From the NCBI RefSeq assembly GCF_947166415.1, contig NZ_CAMVEE010000017.1, positions 1 to 42,843 on the forward strand: DNA of 42,843 bases. Reading direction: 5' to 3'. The notes beneath the pieces are model-generated. The model did no database searches. It saw only the letters and a program-made list of their open reading frames with translations, and had not been told where the DNA came from. This document shows, in pieces, positions 7,334 to 14,225 of the stretch. Source of the stretch: an uncultured Methanobrevibacter sp. Its GTDB lineage: Archaea > Methanobacteriota > Methanobacteria > Methanobacteriales > Methanobacteriaceae. The position numbers were made by a program, and so were the translations under genes. Numbering within the stretch: the first letter of the stretch is position 1; each line of letters opens with the position of its first letter.

Positions 7334-8107
7334 TTATTCATTTGAAGCCTTTTTCATGCTTGAAACATAATCCTTTAATGCTTCTGTAGCATTTTCCCCA
7401 TTTTCTTCAATGATTTTGACAATTGCACTTCCAACAATGACTCCATCGGCAATATTGCCAATTTCTCTAGCTTGATCAGGAGTATTGATTCCAAAACCGA
7501 CCGCTACAGGTATATCGGTAACATCACGAATGTCTGAAATTATTGCACCCAAATCAGTTTTAATTTCACTGCGCATTCCTGTAACTCCCAATGAAGAAAC
7601 GACATATATGAAACCGCTTGCTTCTCCAGCAATCATTTGAATCCTTTCCTTTGAAGTCGGTGCTATCAATGAGATTACATCAACATCATTCTTTTTGGCG
7701 ATTTCTGCAATTTCACCTTTCTCTTCATAAGGCAAATCCGGAGAAATGATTCCATCAATTCCCAACTCATTGCATCTTTTAAAGAATTTTTCATATCCGT
7801 AAAAGAATACCGGATTGATATAAGTTAAAAATACCAAAGGAACATCAGTTTGCAGACGTACTCTCCTTACGATATCAAAGACATCATCGGTTGTAGTGTT
7901 ATGCTTCAATGCACGTACATTGGCATCCTGTATCACAACACCTTCAGCCATAGGATCAGAAAAAGGAATTCCTATTTCTATCAAGTCACAGCCGGCCTCT
8001 TCCATAGCCAATATGTATTCAACTGTCTTGTCAATTGTAGGATCTCCCGCAGTTAAAAAACCTATGAATGCTTTGCCATTTTGAAATGCATTAGCAATTT
8101 TACTCAT
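7334..8107 (-). CDS. trpA: Tryptophan synthase alpha subunit
   Basis: A 257-residue TIM-barrel enzyme that cleaves indole-3-glycerol phosphate to indole for the beta subunit. Signatures are [11 protein letters not shown], the [15 protein letters not shown] motif with catalytic Glu and Asp, YINPVFFYG, the [12 protein letters not shown] loop, and [10 protein letters not shown] with [10 protein letters not shown] for phosphate binding. It is the last gene of the operon and overlaps the trpB stop by 8 nt, so translation is probably coupled. The length is slightly short of bacterial TrpA but normal for archaea. Confidence 0.97.
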
Positions 8108-9284
8108 TTAAATCAACTCCCCTATATTCTGCAATGGATCGGACATCCTTGTCTCCCCTTCCTGACAGGCAAACCATGATTATTTCATCCTTATCCATAG
8201 TCGGAGCCAATTGCATTGCATATGCAACGGCATGGGCACTTTCAATAGCTGGAATGATACCTTCCATTCTTGATAAGTATTCAAAAGCGTTGACTGCTTC
8301 CTCATCAGTGATAGGGACATATTCGGCTCTGCCCGTATCTCTCAAGTAAGCATGTTCCGGACCTACTCCGGGATAGTCCAGTCCCGCAGATACTGAATAA
8401 ACAGGTGCGATTTGACCATAGTCTCCCTGGTTGAAAATGGACTTCATTCCATGAAATATTCCAATTTTTCCATTGGTCAATGCAGCAGCATTGTATGGTG
8501 TATCGATACCCTTTCCACCGGCTTCACATCCTATCAATTTCACGTCCTCATCCTCAATGAAATTATAGAATGCACCCATAGCATTGCTTCCGCCACCTAC
8601 ACATGCAATTACTGCATCAGGAAGCCTACCTTCTTTTTCTAAAAACTGTTCACGTGCTTCCGCACTGATTACAGCTTGGAAATCCCTAACTATCATTGGA
8701 AATGGATGAGGCCCCATTGTAGAACCGATTACATAATTTGTATCATGGACACGTGCAATCCAATCTCTGAACGCATCATTTACAGCATCTTTTAAAGTTT
8801 TAGTTCCTGATTTAACTGAATGGACCTTCGCTCCCAGCAATTCCATTCTGTAAACGTTTAATGCTTGCCTTTTTGTGTCAACTTCTCCCATGAATACTTC
8901 ACATTCCATATCAAGCAATGCAGCTGCAGTTGCGGTTGCCACACCATGCTGCCCTGCACCGGTTTCAGCAATTACTCTTGTCTTTCCCATTTTTTTAGCA
9001 AGCAAAACCTGACCTAGAACATTGTTGATTTTATGAGCTCCAGTGTGGTTCAGGTCTTCACGCTTCAAATATATTTTAGCCCCTCCAAGGTCTTCAGTCA
9101 TTCTTTCAGCATAATACAGTAAAGAAGGTCTACCAGCATATTCCTTTAAAAGGGTGTTGAGCTCTTCTACAAAATCAGGATCATTCATATAATGATTATA
9201 TTGCTCTTCCAAGTAAAGCAATTCGTTCATTAACGTTTCAGATATGTACTGTCCCCCATATTCACCATATCTCCCTTTACTCAA
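8100..9284 (-). CDS. trpB: Tryptophan synthase beta subunit
   Basis: A 394-residue PLP enzyme that condenses indole with serine. The PLP lysine lies in [13 protein letters not shown], the catalytic loop is [13 protein letters not shown], the phosphate loop is [10 protein letters not shown], and the C-terminal CLSGRGDKD is present. Size and the [16 protein letters not shown]-terminus mark it as the TrpB1 type that pairs with TrpA. It starts at TTG 9284, whose last bases form the trpF stop (a 4-nt overlap). It overlaps trpA by 8 nt downstream. Confidence 0.97.
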
Positions 9285-9880
9285 TTTATAACCTCCATAA
9301 TTTCTCTAACTTTATTTTCATCTTTAATCCCATTAGTTTCAAGACTTGAACTTAAATCAATTGCATAAGGATTGAATTCTTCAATGGCTTTCCTAACATT
9401 GGAAATGTCAATACCTCCAGCCAAAAAGAATTCTTTTCTTAAATCTTTTCTTATCAAACGCCAATCGAAAGTCTTTCCGCTTCCTTTTCCACTGTCAAGC
9501 AACAAATAATCTGCAAACGAATTATCATATTCCAACAAATTTTTTTCGCCAGACATTTCAATTGCATTAATAATTATCAGTTCATCATTAGTATTTTCTT
9601 TTAATTTCTTAATATAGTATTCACTTTCATTGCCATGAAGCTGTGCAATGTCAATTACACCACCCTCATATAAATCAATAATCTCATCAATGTCCGCATC
9701 AACAAAAACACCAACAGAAAGTATGTCCGGACTCAAATTATTTTTCATTTCCAAAGCAAAATCATGAGACACTTTCCTTTTAGAATCAGCAAATACAAAA
9801 CCTACATAATCGGGTTTATATTTATTTGCTATCTCAATATCTTCCAATCTCTTAAGTCCACAAATTTTGATTTTAACCAT
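9281..9880 (-). CDS. trpF: Phosphoribosylanthranilate isomerase
   Basis: A 199-residue TIM barrel that performs the Amadori rearrangement of phosphoribosylanthranilate. KIKICGLKR near the N-terminus carries the catalytic Cys (Cys7), and the [30 protein letters not shown] and [13 protein letters not shown] segments follow. The last contains the catalytic Asp of the GSGKTFDW loop. [12 protein letters not shown] binds phosphate. ATG 9880 overlaps the end of trpC by 8 nt, and the gene overlaps trpB by 4 nt. The length is normal. Confidence 0.96.
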
Positions 9881-10649
9881 TCTTCAACTCCGAAATCAAA
9901 GATTTTTTATCATCACTTTTCATTAAAGTTTCACCAATTAAAACAGCATCAACATTATTTTCTTTTAATTTGGTAACATCTTCCTTTGTTTTGATGCCAC
10001 TTTCTGAAATAAATATCATATTGTCACTTACACATCTACGTAAGTTAATACTATTTTCAATATCTACAGTAAAATCCTTTAGGTTTCGGTTGTTCACACC
10101 GATGATTTCTGCACCGACATTCATTGCAGTTCTTATTTCATCACCGTCATGAGTTTCAACAATTGCAGATAAACCCAATTCATGAGCCAAGTCCAAATAT
10201 TTCTTTAGCTGAACATTGTCCAATATTGAAACTATTAAAAGAATACATGAAGCACCCAATAACTTTGCTTCCCAAATCATGTACTCATCAATGACAAAAT
10301 CCTTCCTCAAAAGAGGGATTGAAACGTTTTGTGAAATTTCCTTTAGATAACGATTGGACCCTTTGAAAAAATAAGGTTCTGTTAAGACTGAAATGGCCGA
10401 AGCGCCGGCACTTTCATACTCCTGTGCAATTGCAACATAATCAAAATCTTCAGCAATCATGCCTTTTGAAGGAGAAGCCCTTTTGACTTCAGCGATGATT
10501 GCGATTTCAGGATCATTTAATGCTTCTTTAAAAGGAAAGTTATGGGAAATTTCCATTTTTAAAACTTCATTTTTTAAATCTTCCAAAGGTTTTTCCCTTT
10601 TGGCCTCAATCAGTCTCTCTTCGGTTTTGGCAACGATTTTTTCCAACAT
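9873..10649 (-). CDS. trpC: Indole-3-glycerol phosphate synthase
   Basis: A 258-residue TIM barrel that closes the indole ring. Hallmarks are IAEVKRASPSKGMI with the catalytic Lys, SAISVLTEPYFFKGS, LLRKDFVIDEYMIWEA with the second catalytic Lys, IGVNNRNLKDF, and FISESGIKT. I use ATG 10649 (MLEKIVAKT), 4 nt after the trpD stop. A TTG at 10685 would add 12 residues with no better ribosome site and would overlap trpD. It overlaps trpF by 8 nt. Confidence 0.96.
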   Translation of the reverse strand: MLEKIVAKTEERLIEAKREKPLEDLKNEVLKMEISHNFPFKEALNDPEIAIIAEVKRASPSKGMIAEDFDYVAIAQEYESAGASAISVLTEPYFFKGSNRYLKEISQNVSIPLLRKDFVIDEYMIWEAKLLGASCILLIVSILDNVQLKKYLDLAHELGLSAIVETHDGDEIRTAMNVGAEIIGVNNRNLKDFTVDIENSINLRRCVSDNMIFISESGIKTKEDVTKLKENNVDAVLIGETLMKSDDKKSLISELKNG

Positions 10650-10653
10650 AATA

Positions 10654-11661
10654 TCATCTGTTTGTAACTTCAATGAACTTTTCAAGTTGCTTTAAAGCCT
10701 TTCCGGAATCTATTATCTCTTCAGCTAACTTGACTCCTTCCCTTAAGGAGTTTACTTTGCCTGCAACATATAATCCTGCGGCAGAATTCAATAAGACAGC
10801 ATCTCTTCTAGGTCCTTTCTCACCGTTTAAAATTGACAATGTGATTTTTGCATTTTCTTTTGCATCTCCCCCTACAAGGTCATCTTTAGATGAGAATTCC
10901 ATATCAAAATATTCCGGTGAGATTTCATAAGACATTGTTTTTCCGTTTTTGATTTCGCAAACGGCAGTTTTGGCGCTTGTTGAAATTTCATCCATTACAT
11001 CCAAACCGTAGACAACCATTGCGGATTTAACTCCCAGATTGTTTAAAACTTCTGTCAGAGGCTCAATTAAATCCTTTTCATAAACGCCCAATACCTGCAT
11101 TGAAGCTCCAGCAGGATTGGTCAATGGACCTAAAATATTGAAAATTGTCCTTATTGAAAGTTCCTTACGCACACCTGCAACATATTTCATTGACAAATGA
11201 TAATTCTGAGCAAACAGGAAACATAAATTGATCTCTTTCAAGCACTGCAAACTTTTTTCAGGAGTTATATGAATGTTGACTCCCAATTCCTCTAAAACAT
11301 CGGCAGCACCACATTTGCTTGATGCAGACCTGTTTCCATGTTTTGCAACAGAAACGCCTGCTGCAGAAATTACAATTGAAGATGTGGTTGAAATATTGAA
11401 TGTATTGGAACCATCACCACCGGTTCCAACGATTTCCAAAACCTCTTCGTCATTCAATAACCTTACACAATGGTCCCTCATAGCCTTAGCGGAAGCGGTA
11501 ATTTCCTCAATGGTTTCGCCTTTCATCGACATTGCTGTTAAATAAGCACTCATTTGAACTTCACTGGCTTCACCACTCATGATTTCATCCATGGTCTGGT
11601 ATGCTTCATCATAAGTTAAATCTTGATGTTTATATACTTTTAAAATTGCTTCTTTAATCAT
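10654..11661 (-). CDS. trpD: Anthranilate phosphoribosyltransferase
   Basis: A 335-residue enzyme that adds phosphoribosyl from PRPP to anthranilate. The PRPP loop VGTGGDGSNTFNIST, KHGNRSASSKCGAADVLEELG, and the metal-site VYGLDVMDEIST are all present. Its position is notable: between trpG and trpC. From memory, Methanothermobacter has trpD last in its operon. The start ATG 11661 overlaps the trpG stop by 4 nt (ATGA). Confidence 0.97.
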   Translation of the reverse strand: MIKEAILKVYKHQDLTYDEAYQTMDEIMSGEASEVQMSAYLTAMSMKGETIEEITASAKAMRDHCVRLLNDEEVLEIVGTGGDGSNTFNISTTSSIVISAAGVSVAKHGNRSASSKCGAADVLEELGVNIHITPEKSLQCLKEINLCFLFAQNYHLSMKYVAGVRKELSIRTIFNILGPLTNPAGASMQVLGVYEKDLIEPLTEVLNNLGVKSAMVVYGLDVMDEISTSAKTAVCEIKNGKTMSYEISPEYFDMEFSSKDDLVGGDAKENAKITLSILNGEKGPRRDAVLLNSAAGLYVAGKVNSLREGVKLAEEIIDSGKALKQLEKFIEVTNR

Positions 11662-12242
11662 AAAATCCCTTTTTCAACTTTTTCTAAAAAATTTTCTATA
11701 ATTGTTAAACCGTCAGGCGTCAATATTGATTCAGGATGGAACTGAAGTCCATAAACGTTGAAATCCTTATGTTTTACTGCCATGACTTCACCATCATCCC
11801 TTGATTTTGATATGATTTCCAAACAAGATGGAAGTGTATCTTCTGCCAAACTCAAAGAATGATATCTTCCAACACTGATTTCTGTAGGCAACCCTTTGAA
11901 TATGAAATCATAGTCAAGAGAAATTTTTGAGGATTTGCCGTGCATCAGCCTTTTAGCATAAGAAATCCTGCCGCCGAATGCAGCACAAATTGATTGATGG
12001 CCCAGACAGACTCCCAAAATTGGAATCCTATCATGGAATTCCTTGACTATGTCAATGCAGATTCCTGCATTTTCAGGTTTTCCAGGTCCTGGAGATAAAA
12101 TAATGGCTTCAGGATTCAAATTTTTAATCTCCTCAATGGTTATCTTATCGTTTCTATATACTGAAATGTCAGAGTTGAGCTCACCAACCAATTGAAACAA
12201 GTTATATGAAAAACTATCGTAATTGTCAATTAAAAGAATCAT
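11658..12242 (-). CDS. trpG: Anthranilate synthase glutaminase component
   Basis: A 194-residue class I glutamine amidotransferase that supplies ammonia to TrpE. LIDNYDSFSYN marks the N-terminus, LSPGPGKPENAG the oxyanion region, GVCLGHQ the nucleophile (Cys79), and FHPES the catalytic His-Glu. An identical fold recurs in hisH at 26825, but the DNYDSF and HSLS motifs identify this as TrpG. It overlaps trpE and trpD by 4 nt each. Confidence 0.97.
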   Translation of the reverse strand: MILLIDNYDSFSYNLFQLVGELNSDISVYRNDKITIEEIKNLNPEAIILSPGPGKPENAGICIDIVKEFHDRIPILGVCLGHQSICAAFGGRISYAKRLMHGKSSKISLDYDFIFKGLPTEISVGRYHSLSLAEDTLPSCLEIISKSRDDGEVMAVKHKDFNVYGLQFHPESILTPDGLTIIENFLEKVEKGIL

Positions 12243-13735
12243 TCTAATCCCCCATCAGCAATTTTCAATGCATTAATGACTGCAGCGGCTTTATTCAAGC
12301 ATTCATCATACTCCTTATCAGGAACACTGTCTGCAACAATTCCCGCACCGGAACGTATGAAAACCTTATTGTTTCTTGCAAATGCGATTCTGATTGAAAT
12401 GCATGTGTCAACGTTTCCGCTCAAATCCACATAGCCAATAGCTCCGCCGTAAATTCCTCTTTTGTTGTTTTCAAGTTCGTTGATTATCTCACAAGCCCTT
12501 ATTTTTGGAGCGCCGGACAATGTTCCTGCAGGCAAAATTGAGTCGATTGCCACAAGAGAATCCAAATCGCCTCTTAATGTTCCTGTTACAGTGGAACCGA
12601 TGTGCATCACATGTGAAAATCTCTCGATTGACAGGTATTTTTCCACTTTTACAGAACCTATTTCAGAAATCCTTCCGATGTCATTTCTGCCCAAATCAAC
12701 AAGCATGTTATGTTCTGCCAACTCTTTTTCATCACTGAGCAATTCCTGCTCCAACTCCAAATCCTCTTTTTCCGTTTTTCCGCGGGGTCTTGTTCCCGCA
12801 AGAGGGAAAGTATATAATTTGCGGTCATTGAGTTTAACTAGAGTTTCCGGAGATGCTCCGGCTATCTCTATGTCATTGCTTGAAAAGTAAAACATGTATG
12901 GGGACGGATTTGTTGTCCTCAAAACCCTGTATGTATCGAACAAACTTCCTGAAATTTCGGCCTCTATCCTATTTGACAAAACTACCTGGAAAATGTCGCC
13001 TTCCTTAATGTAATCTTTCGCTTTATCAACCATGTCACAATATTTTTCACGTGAAAATGCGGGAACAAAATCGGACTTCAATCTTAAAGGTTCAATTTCT
13101 GTTTTTTTACCGTTCTTAATTAAGTTGGCTATTGATTTTAAATCATCACAGGCCTTCTTGTAGTTCCTTTCCAAATCATCTGTTTTCATATTGACCATGA
13201 TGATTATCTTCTGTTTAAAATTATCAAATGCTATGACCTTATCGAATAACATCAAATCAATGTCCTTGAACTTATCCTGATTTTCAGCATCCAGATTAAG
13301 TGAAGGCTCTGAATACTTTATATAGTCATAGGCGAAATAACCTACAAATCCTCCAGTGAAAGGAGGCAAATTTTCTAATTTTGGAGATTTGTTCTTTAAA
13401 ACCAATTCTTTTATGATTTCGCTGGGATTTTCTGTTTTGATTTCAATCAAATCATCATTAAACTCCTTAAAATCCGCATCACCTTTAATCTGGACTAATC
13501 CGTTTTGACATGTAAATTCAAGAAGAGGATCAAAACCTAAAAAACTGTACCTTCCCCACTTTTGTGAATCCTCTATGCTTTCCAGCATGTAACAATGATT
13601 GCTGATGCCTTTCAATATTCTTAAAACTTCGATTGGAGTCGCAATATCTGAAAATAATTCATAGGATATTGGAATGCGCTTATAGTCGCAACCTCCACAT
13701 AATTCTTTTACTTCTTCTAAACTTGGGGAATACAT
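12239..13735 (-). CDS. trpE: Anthranilate synthase component I
   Basis: A 498-residue chorismate-utilising enzyme that makes anthranilate with TrpG. The N-terminal half has the ESIEDSQKWGRYSFLG region that forms the tryptophan feedback site in this family. The catalytic half carries FQVVLSNRIEAE, NPSPYMFYF, GASPETLVKL, PLAGTRPRGK, HNMLVDLGRNDIGR, HVMHIGSTVTG, and LPAGTLSGAPK. First gene of the operon; ATG 13735 follows a GAGTGAT site at 4 nt. It overlaps trpG by 4 nt. TRP-box-like operators lie directly upstream. Confidence 0.97.
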   Translation of the reverse strand: MYSPSLEEVKELCGGCDYKRIPISYELFSDIATPIEVLRILKGISNHCYMLESIEDSQKWGRYSFLGFDPLLEFTCQNGLVQIKGDADFKEFNDDLIEIKTENPSEIIKELVLKNKSPKLENLPPFTGGFVGYFAYDYIKYSEPSLNLDAENQDKFKDIDLMLFDKVIAFDNFKQKIIIMVNMKTDDLERNYKKACDDLKSIANLIKNGKKTEIEPLRLKSDFVPAFSREKYCDMVDKAKDYIKEGDIFQVVLSNRIEAEISGSLFDTYRVLRTTNPSPYMFYFSSNDIEIAGASPETLVKLNDRKLYTFPLAGTRPRGKTEKEDLELEQELLSDEKELAEHNMLVDLGRNDIGRISEIGSVKVEKYLSIERFSHVMHIGSTVTGTLRGDLDSLVAIDSILPAGTLSGAPKIRACEIINELENNKRGIYGGAIGYVDLSGNVDTCISIRIAFARNNKVFIRSGAGIVADSVPDKEYDECLNKAAAVINALKIADGGLE

Positions 13736-13823
13736 TCTATCACTCTATAATATAATAAGTACAATGTACTATTTAAAACCTTGTTGTAACTTTTTGTACA
13801 TTATAAAATTTTTAAAAAAAAAT
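13736..13823 (-). promoter_or_regulatory. trp operon promoter with TRP-box-like operators
   Basis: Reading on the minus strand, a TATA-like TTTAAATA lies at 13771-13778. Directly downstream is the perfect inverted repeat AGTACA-T-TGTACT (13758-13770), close to the expected transcript start. A second exact TGTACA lies at 13795-13800, upstream of the TATA box. TGTACA is the known TRP-box core bound by the tryptophan-sensing repressor TrpY of Methanothermobacter. I infer TrpY-type repression here, although no TrpY gene is adjacent. Confidence 0.65.
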
Positions 13824-14225
13824 TTAAATTAGTTTGTCCTGTTCACGGCTGAATTCGATGACTATCTTTTTTATTTCCCTGCTTTCCAAATAAGGAAGTT
13901 TTTCTGTAAGTTCCCTTTCCAAATCGCTGTTCAACTGCATCCTTTTTTGAACATATTCATCACCATCATATTGAGAACGGTACTCCTTATTTAAGTTTGA
14001 ATATTTGGTAATCATCGGCTGAAGGATGGTTTCGATATCCTTGTCAAGCTTATCATTGATGATTTTCCTTTTGCGGATTTCGATAACAAAACCGACAACT
14101 GTGAGGAAAAATCCTAAAACTGTAACTGTTAACGCAGGGACAAAAATTTTATCATCGCCTATGAAAACTACAGTCAAAACAATTCCAATGAAAATTAGAG
14201 CAATCCCGATTTTTTTCAAATCCAT
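13824..14225 (-). CDS. Small two-helix membrane protein with charged tail
   Basis: A 133-residue protein of unknown function. Two membrane helices (about residues 6-22 and 29-49, rich in Ile, Val and Phe) are separated by a short loop, followed by a highly charged, probably coiled-coil cytoplasmic region (about 52-133) with many Glu, Lys and Arg residues. ATG 14225 has an AGGTG site. It lies 18 nt after the CPBP protease gene on the same strand, so the two may be co-transcribed. Confidence 0.7.
   Translation of the reverse strand: MDLKKIGIALIFIGIVLTVVFIGDDKIFVPALTVTVLGFFLTVVGFVIEIRKRKIINDKLDKDIETILQPMITKYSNLNKEYRSQYDGDEYVQKRMQLNSDLERELTEKLPYLESREIKKIVIEFSREQDKLI

Follow-up and report, generated by a model that had tools for sequence, protein, structure and literature searches.

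The trp operon of an uncultured Methanobrevibacter, bacterial in type to judge by its gene order and the grouping of its TrpE, is most likely repressed by TrpY, a resident regulator encoded on another contig, which would read in trans an operator placed before trpE and would also repress trpB2 and its own gene. The operon lies within a stretch of 42,843 nucleotides, hereafter the window. The TrpY/TRP-box system itself is already known; in the type system trpY and trpE are divergent neighbors, an arrangement that the mechanism does not need.

Results

The operator before trpE

The gap between trpE, whose ATG occupies 13735-13733 on the minus strand, and the ORF preceding it spans exactly 13736-13823 in the window's ORF list. 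That ORF (13824..14225, minus strand, as are all features below) encodes 133 amino acids with a hydrophobic N-terminus and no Pfam match, in keeping with the small same-strand neighbor of the original prediction. Read along the minus strand, the first element is box 1, TGTACA (13800-13795), which lies 5' of the TATA box and is conserved in the promoters of 47 genomes of the genus and 26 of other genera. After four bases comes a degenerate box 2, GTTACA (13785..13790), starting 10 bp past box 1 at a place where the operator of trpB2 has TGTACA, and then ACAAGG (13779..13784), which is conserved in the promoter consensus and probably holds the position of a TFB-recognition-like element. The TATA box, TTTTAAATA (13778-13770), is evident from the sequence and from the consensus. 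Its end is overlapped by AGTACATTGTACT (13770-13758), the palindrome AGTACA-T-TGTACT, whose left half is box 3 (AGTACA, 13765..13770), 30 bp from box 1, and whose right half is TGTACT (13758..13763). GAGTGAT (13739..13745), a putative Shine-Dalgarno-like stretch, directly precedes the ATG in this order. TRP boxes read TGTACA, and boxes of this type flank the trpE TATA box, as in the TrpY/TRP-box system.

The upstream TGTACA and the downstream palindrome are therefore both present as had been claimed, but the right half of the palindrome is not conserved. At its place, 1 of 47 promoters of the genus has TGTACT (the window alone), 12 have TATACT, and 15 come within one mismatch, while AGTACATT is present in 41 of the 47. 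The perfect palindrome (1/47) is the single peculiarity of the window among trpE promoters of its genus. Mean information within the genus is 1.66 bits per base in the operator, against 0.69 upstream and 0.63 downstream.

Distribution of the operator

Isolated boxes are uninformative. In the window TGTACA by itself shows no enrichment (4 occurrences against a mean of 7.61 in shuffles), nor does AGTACANTGTACT with at most three mismatches (20 against 14.6), and GTACANTGTAC and its reversed control have one genomic occurrence each. Counts of single TGTACA and the loose palindrome, both at chance level, were accordingly dropped as evidence. TGTACA-N24-AGTACA gives 2 exact sites among 142 with at most two mismatches in the organism's genome (237 for the reversed pattern). 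The composite TGTACA-N18-TTWWATAGTAC, sought in the 1.72-Mb assembly, gives 2 exact sites, none with one mismatch, 2 with two, and 30 with three (67 sites with at most three mismatches for the reversed composite). The composite pattern is far above chance. Its two exact sites lie before trpE and before trpB2, so that the search for other TGTACA pairs proposed in the original prediction did turn up a second exact pair. The gene behind it, on contig C4, encodes a 433-aa TrpB2-type protein (NF009057, 691 bits, cut-off 366), and its boxes, too, are those of the TrpY/TRP-box system.

Across 138 genomes of the family, the composite with at most one mismatch matches 223 times and the reversed pattern 46 times. 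Among 150 of the 223 matches, listed from 78 genomes, 63 lie within 500 bp upstream of trpE, 62 within 500 bp upstream of trpB2, and 25 elsewhere; of the exact matches in that list, 91 of 94 lie within 500 bp upstream of one or the other gene. The 25 others include three trpE genes or remnants (G022, G071, G074), two sites that fall in repeats containing the trp promoter (G084, G094), six sites preceding a pyridoxamine-kinase-like gene, and one preceding a permease-like gene. This last site is operator-like (L382, G009:C20:47851-47885), and the permease is of NCS1 type by look only. In G084 (L288/L378) and G094 (L294/L379), trp-promoter stretches of 208 and 419 bp, respectively, recur at the ends of two contigs, the G084 copy before a TrkH-like gene; these are either repeated promoter segments or assembly overlaps.

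The operator was also scored, out of 17, in trpE promoters of both kinds. Bacterial-type promoters score at least 15 in 73 of the 78 cases examined, 57 of them reaching 17, while five score just 12 (G074, G090, G095, G150, G153). The archaeal-type promoters in the same table all score 16 or 17 (9/9).

The pyridoxamine-kinase-like gene is found in 81 of the 138 genomes. A score of at least 15 is attained by 14 of the 50 promoters examined, all 14 in the window's genus, and by 1 of 1000 base-shuffled windows. Outside the 50, G110 has another such gene with the operator. Loci of this kind are L373-L377, L380, and nine more. The protein of G025 reaches 223.4 bits against the pyridoxamine kinase family NF005491, just below the cut-off of 231, over 250 residues of a longer frame. 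The organism's own pyridoxamine-kinase-like gene was rejected as a target; its best score, 13, is at the level of shuffled sequence.

TrpY in the genome and its relatives

The regulator had been predicted to be encoded elsewhere or to be different. It is elsewhere: a search of the genome for a TrpY homologue, whose absence would have told against the proposal, found one, at G000:C16:13253-13741, on a contig other than that of trpE. It scores 211.2 bits against NF053754 (cut-off 180), is 60, 54, 61, and 50% identical to the TrpY proteins of four relatives in which the gene is divergent from trpE, and in alignment with these four retains W2 and VDRR. Relatives in families f2, f3, and f4 encode a 167-aa protein divergently from trpE; the two that were tested are members of NF053754.

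TrpY is present in all 37 genomes of the genus in a first set and in 66 of 67 in a wider one; the exception, G101, has the operator and trpE and an assembly contamination of 8%. In the family, 134 of 138 genomes have a match at an E-value of 0.001, 128 of them over the cut-off. Five genomes of 92-99% completeness (G002, G004, G097, G114, G123) have no match to trpE yet keep TrpY. All but G004 have an operator match, which in G002, G097, and G114 is upstream of trpB2.

In 30 of 31 loci of the genus, that of the organism included, the trpY leader has TGTACA at -30 or -31 relative to the TGG codon of TrpY; at this place G123 reads TGGACA. Eight loci from other genera vary: two have TGTACA there, one has TGTACT one base nearer, one has GTAC at -35, and four have no GTAC nearby. 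A box thus stands at the presumed start of trpY in the organism's genome, as autorepression would have it.

A bacterial-type operon apart from trpY

The window's operon runs trpEGDCFBA: trpE (12239..13735), trpG (GATase, 11658..12242), trpD (10654..11661), trpC (IGPS, 9873..10685), trpF (PRAI, 9281..9880), trpB (8100..9284), and trpA (7334..8107), those after trpE assigned by Pfam and trpB also by exceeding the TIGR00263 cut-off. Other bacterial-type loci long enough to show the order have the same one, and archaeal-type loci have E-G-C-F-B-A-D, with trpF not found in some. The window's TrpE scores 529.8 against TIGR00564 (trpE_most, cut-off 517.7) and 456.2 against TIGR01820 (TrpE-arch), below the cut-off of 512.05. 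It is 61-69% identical to the bacterial TrpEs retained and 43-46% to full-length TrpEs of f2 and f3. In a quick tree of 121 sequences, built from TrpE alone, the 34 rows of bacterial-type Methanobacteriaceae sequences make up a single clade (SH-aLRT 98) within a group of 101 that contains 65 bacterial rows from several phyla and 2 Methanomassiliicoccaceae rows; 16 archaeal-type rows form a separate clade (99). Because similarity to the window guided the choice of bacterial rows and the root was placed at the midpoint for drawing, the tree cannot name a donor. By gene order and TrpE grouping, the operon is of bacterial type.

In the organism, trpY and trpE are on different contigs rather than divergent neighbors. 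A survey of 119 trpE places in 117 genomes, with bacterial type defined as at least 60% identity, puts none of 91 bacterial-type places within 1 kb of trpY (78 lie on a contig separate from it, 9 share its contig at a distance of at least 156 kb, and 4 are in genomes with no TrpY among the matches listed), although draft assemblies could hide some linkage. Of 27 archaeal-type places, one of them truncated, 25 have trpY within 1 kb; the exceptions are G066 and G069. One place, G141:C144 (54%), was set aside from both classes.

Around trpY, L311 has lpd, hypC, trpY and then, in the divergent direction, trpEGCFBAD, tRNA-Ile, mip18, and arcS; L309 has the same order from mip18 to lpd, and L310 has lpd, hypC, trpY, the operon, and tRNA-Ile. 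In the window's genus, all 11 loci examined have arcS, mip18, trpY, hypC, and lpd, in that order. A scan of two of these 11 (L190, L194) placed a tRNA-Ile gene between mip18 and trpY in both, and four loci from other genera (L383, L387, L390, L391) have it there too. Here hypC and mip18 were assigned by Pfam, and arcS and lpd are what we take the neighboring genes to be. Compared by sequence, the neighborhood of trpY is preserved in the genus, and the trp operon is absent from between tRNA-Ile and trpY. The ancestral order rests on L309, L310, and L311, because genus g26 is rearranged around trpY (L307, L308, L312) and G079 has hypC moved. Within one genus, G066 and G069 (L304, L305) have an archaeal-type operon unlinked to trpY, and G067 and G068 (L276, L277) have the bacterial type. 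The TrpEs of G066 and G069 group with those of g26, and trp operons may therefore have moved more than once.

To look for signs that an operon had been replaced in situ under a standing promoter, the ORFs that precede trpE were compared among 25 loci and the window. None is common with G069; some are common within the genus (one also with g17) and within g23.

A leader ORF in relatives

An ORF that follows a Shine-Dalgarno-like stretch of four or more bases overlaps the start of trpE, in another frame, at 36 of the 40 archaeal-type loci examined; it is lacking in L124, L304, L305, and the truncated L490. The 36 loci (L112-L123, L306-L312, L473-L489) follow the pattern ATG-N6-AGT-GAA-TGT-TTT-TGG. 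All have trpE in the +1 frame relative to the leader and GAA, TTT, and TGG as leader codons 5, 7, and 8, and the leader stops 0 to 18 codons past TGG. The tabulated TGG is partly so by construction, because loci were selected for the codon tabulation by a motif ending in TTTTGG; the count of 36 leader ORFs did not use that motif. The overlap, read in the trpE frame as V-N-V-F-G, is 100, 100, 78, 100, and 100% identical, while the next 25 columns are 25-64% identical, values that are underrated because the alignment is ungapped.

The leader is a candidate for control by a +1 frameshift on tryptophan starvation, or for leader control of another sort. A plain GTG start of trpE is possible instead: it is feasible in all 36 loci, the loci are related, and a TTT-GGN reading in trpE by itself produces the TGG, though the GTG has a Shine-Dalgarno match of three bases or fewer. 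No such leader precedes the window's trpE, whose ATG comes directly after GAGTGAT. A literature search for a leader-peptide frameshift at an archaeal trpE found no paper; in the portions available, a 2021 review of archaeal recoding mentions neither tryptophan nor trpE (PMC8211752), and a 2016 review mentions neither trpE nor methanogens (PMC5009743).

Discussion

With tryptophan plentiful, TrpY, whose gene is on a separate contig, would occupy the two boxes that flank the TATA box of trpE, TGTACA and AGTACA. These boxes, 1 and 3, lie 30 bp apart, about three helical turns, and TrpY sitting on them with tryptophan bound would exclude TBP and TFB from the promoter. An operator of the same kind would bring trpB2 under the same regulator, and a single TGTACA near its own transcription start would allow TrpY to control itself. 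The gene trpY would lie apart from its proposed target because the archaeal trpEGCFBAD operon, which some relatives keep between tRNA-Ile and trpY, is absent there and the bacterial-type trpEGDCFBA operon, which now carries the operator, is sited elsewhere.

The closest precedent is Methanothermobacter thermautotrophicus, with its TrpY and trpEGCFBAD. The present system resembles it in its TrpY-family regulator and in the TGTACA-type boxes that surround the TATA box of trpE at the 30-bp spacing also found in relatives from f2 and f3. It differs in that trpY is unlinked, the operon is of the bacterial type EGDCFBA, box 2 is degenerate, and trpE has no overlapping leader. TrpY reportedly controls trpB2 in M. 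thermautotrophicus as well (work of Karr in 2008), and the operator of the same make before trpB2 matches this, with no difference known from the present data. According to a paper that summarizes Xie and Reeve 2005 (PMC6737238), TrpY binds TRP boxes in the overlapping trpY and trpE promoters and represses trpY and trpE with tryptophan and trpY alone without it. The same source compares lineages. Like the organism's TrpY, Tar (TK0271) of Thermococcus kodakarensis is an archaeal trp regulator encoded outside the trp operon; unlike it, Tar is an activator and is encoded in the aro operon, and the TrpY homologue of T. kodakarensis does not regulate trp (PMC6737238), which counts against our explanation. 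A search of the open-licence literature found nothing on a TrpY operator in Methanobrevibacter or on the unlinked arrangement.

Perhaps some other regulator reads the boxes and TrpY has been kept for a different role. TrpY homologues do vary in role by lineage (PMC6737238), and TrpY persists in highly complete genomes that lack trpE. Yet those trpE-less genomes, apart from G004, also keep an operator match, in three of them upstream of trpB2, and the same operator that stands between trpY and trpE in linked relatives stands again before trpB2. We therefore consider this improbable. That the motif, as TFB site, TATA box, and start region, makes up a strong basal promoter rather than an operator seems less probable still. 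The motif is in part a TATA box, and lone TGTACA hexamers are at chance level, but a basal promoter would not account for TGTACA being kept together with AGTAC 30 bp away, nor for exact composites falling nearly always, among the matches listed, at trpE and trpB2.

History might also have run the other way: EGDCFBA may be ancestral in these archaea, bacteria having acquired the operon from them, with the operator there from the start. The operator does precede both types of operon, and the tree, with its drawn root and similarity-picked bacterial rows, leaves room for such a course. However, the 34 Methanobacteriaceae rows are a single clade nested with 65 bacterial rows in the 101-row group, and it is the archaeal type that adjoins trpY among the family's other genera and in f2, f3, and f4. 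We give this reversal very little credence; transfer from bacteria would be the direction more in accord with both observations. TrpY acting in trans on a foreign operon is thus the reading retained here.

A further reading, less likely than not, is that the operator outlived the genes it first served. The ancestral archaeal operon would have had two layers of feedback, the TrpY operator and a sensor acting in translation: ribosomes starved for Trp-tRNA would pause at TTT TGG in a leader of 8-26 codons and enter trpE by a +1 slip. Its replacement by a bacterial operon in the window's lineage would have cost the sensor, with only the operator carried over, to be read in trans. Some species would later have brought a pyridoxamine-kinase-like gene under the operator, and the kinase-like product may provide PLP for TrpB. 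If the leader is indeed a frameshift sensor, then the ribosome would read amino acid starvation directly to control an archaeal biosynthetic gene, a case for which our literature search found no example.

In the arrangement proposed here, an archaeal repressor already resident would control an operon of foreign origin, the structural genes having been swapped while the regulator gene stayed at its old site. It predicts a small TrpY regulon in Methanobrevibacter-like methanogens, consisting of trpE, trpB2, trpY, and, in some species, the pyridoxamine-kinase-like gene. Since the operator is found on both types of operon across many genera, these archaea may offer a natural series in which to follow how regulatory sites are kept or regained after the genes they control have been replaced.
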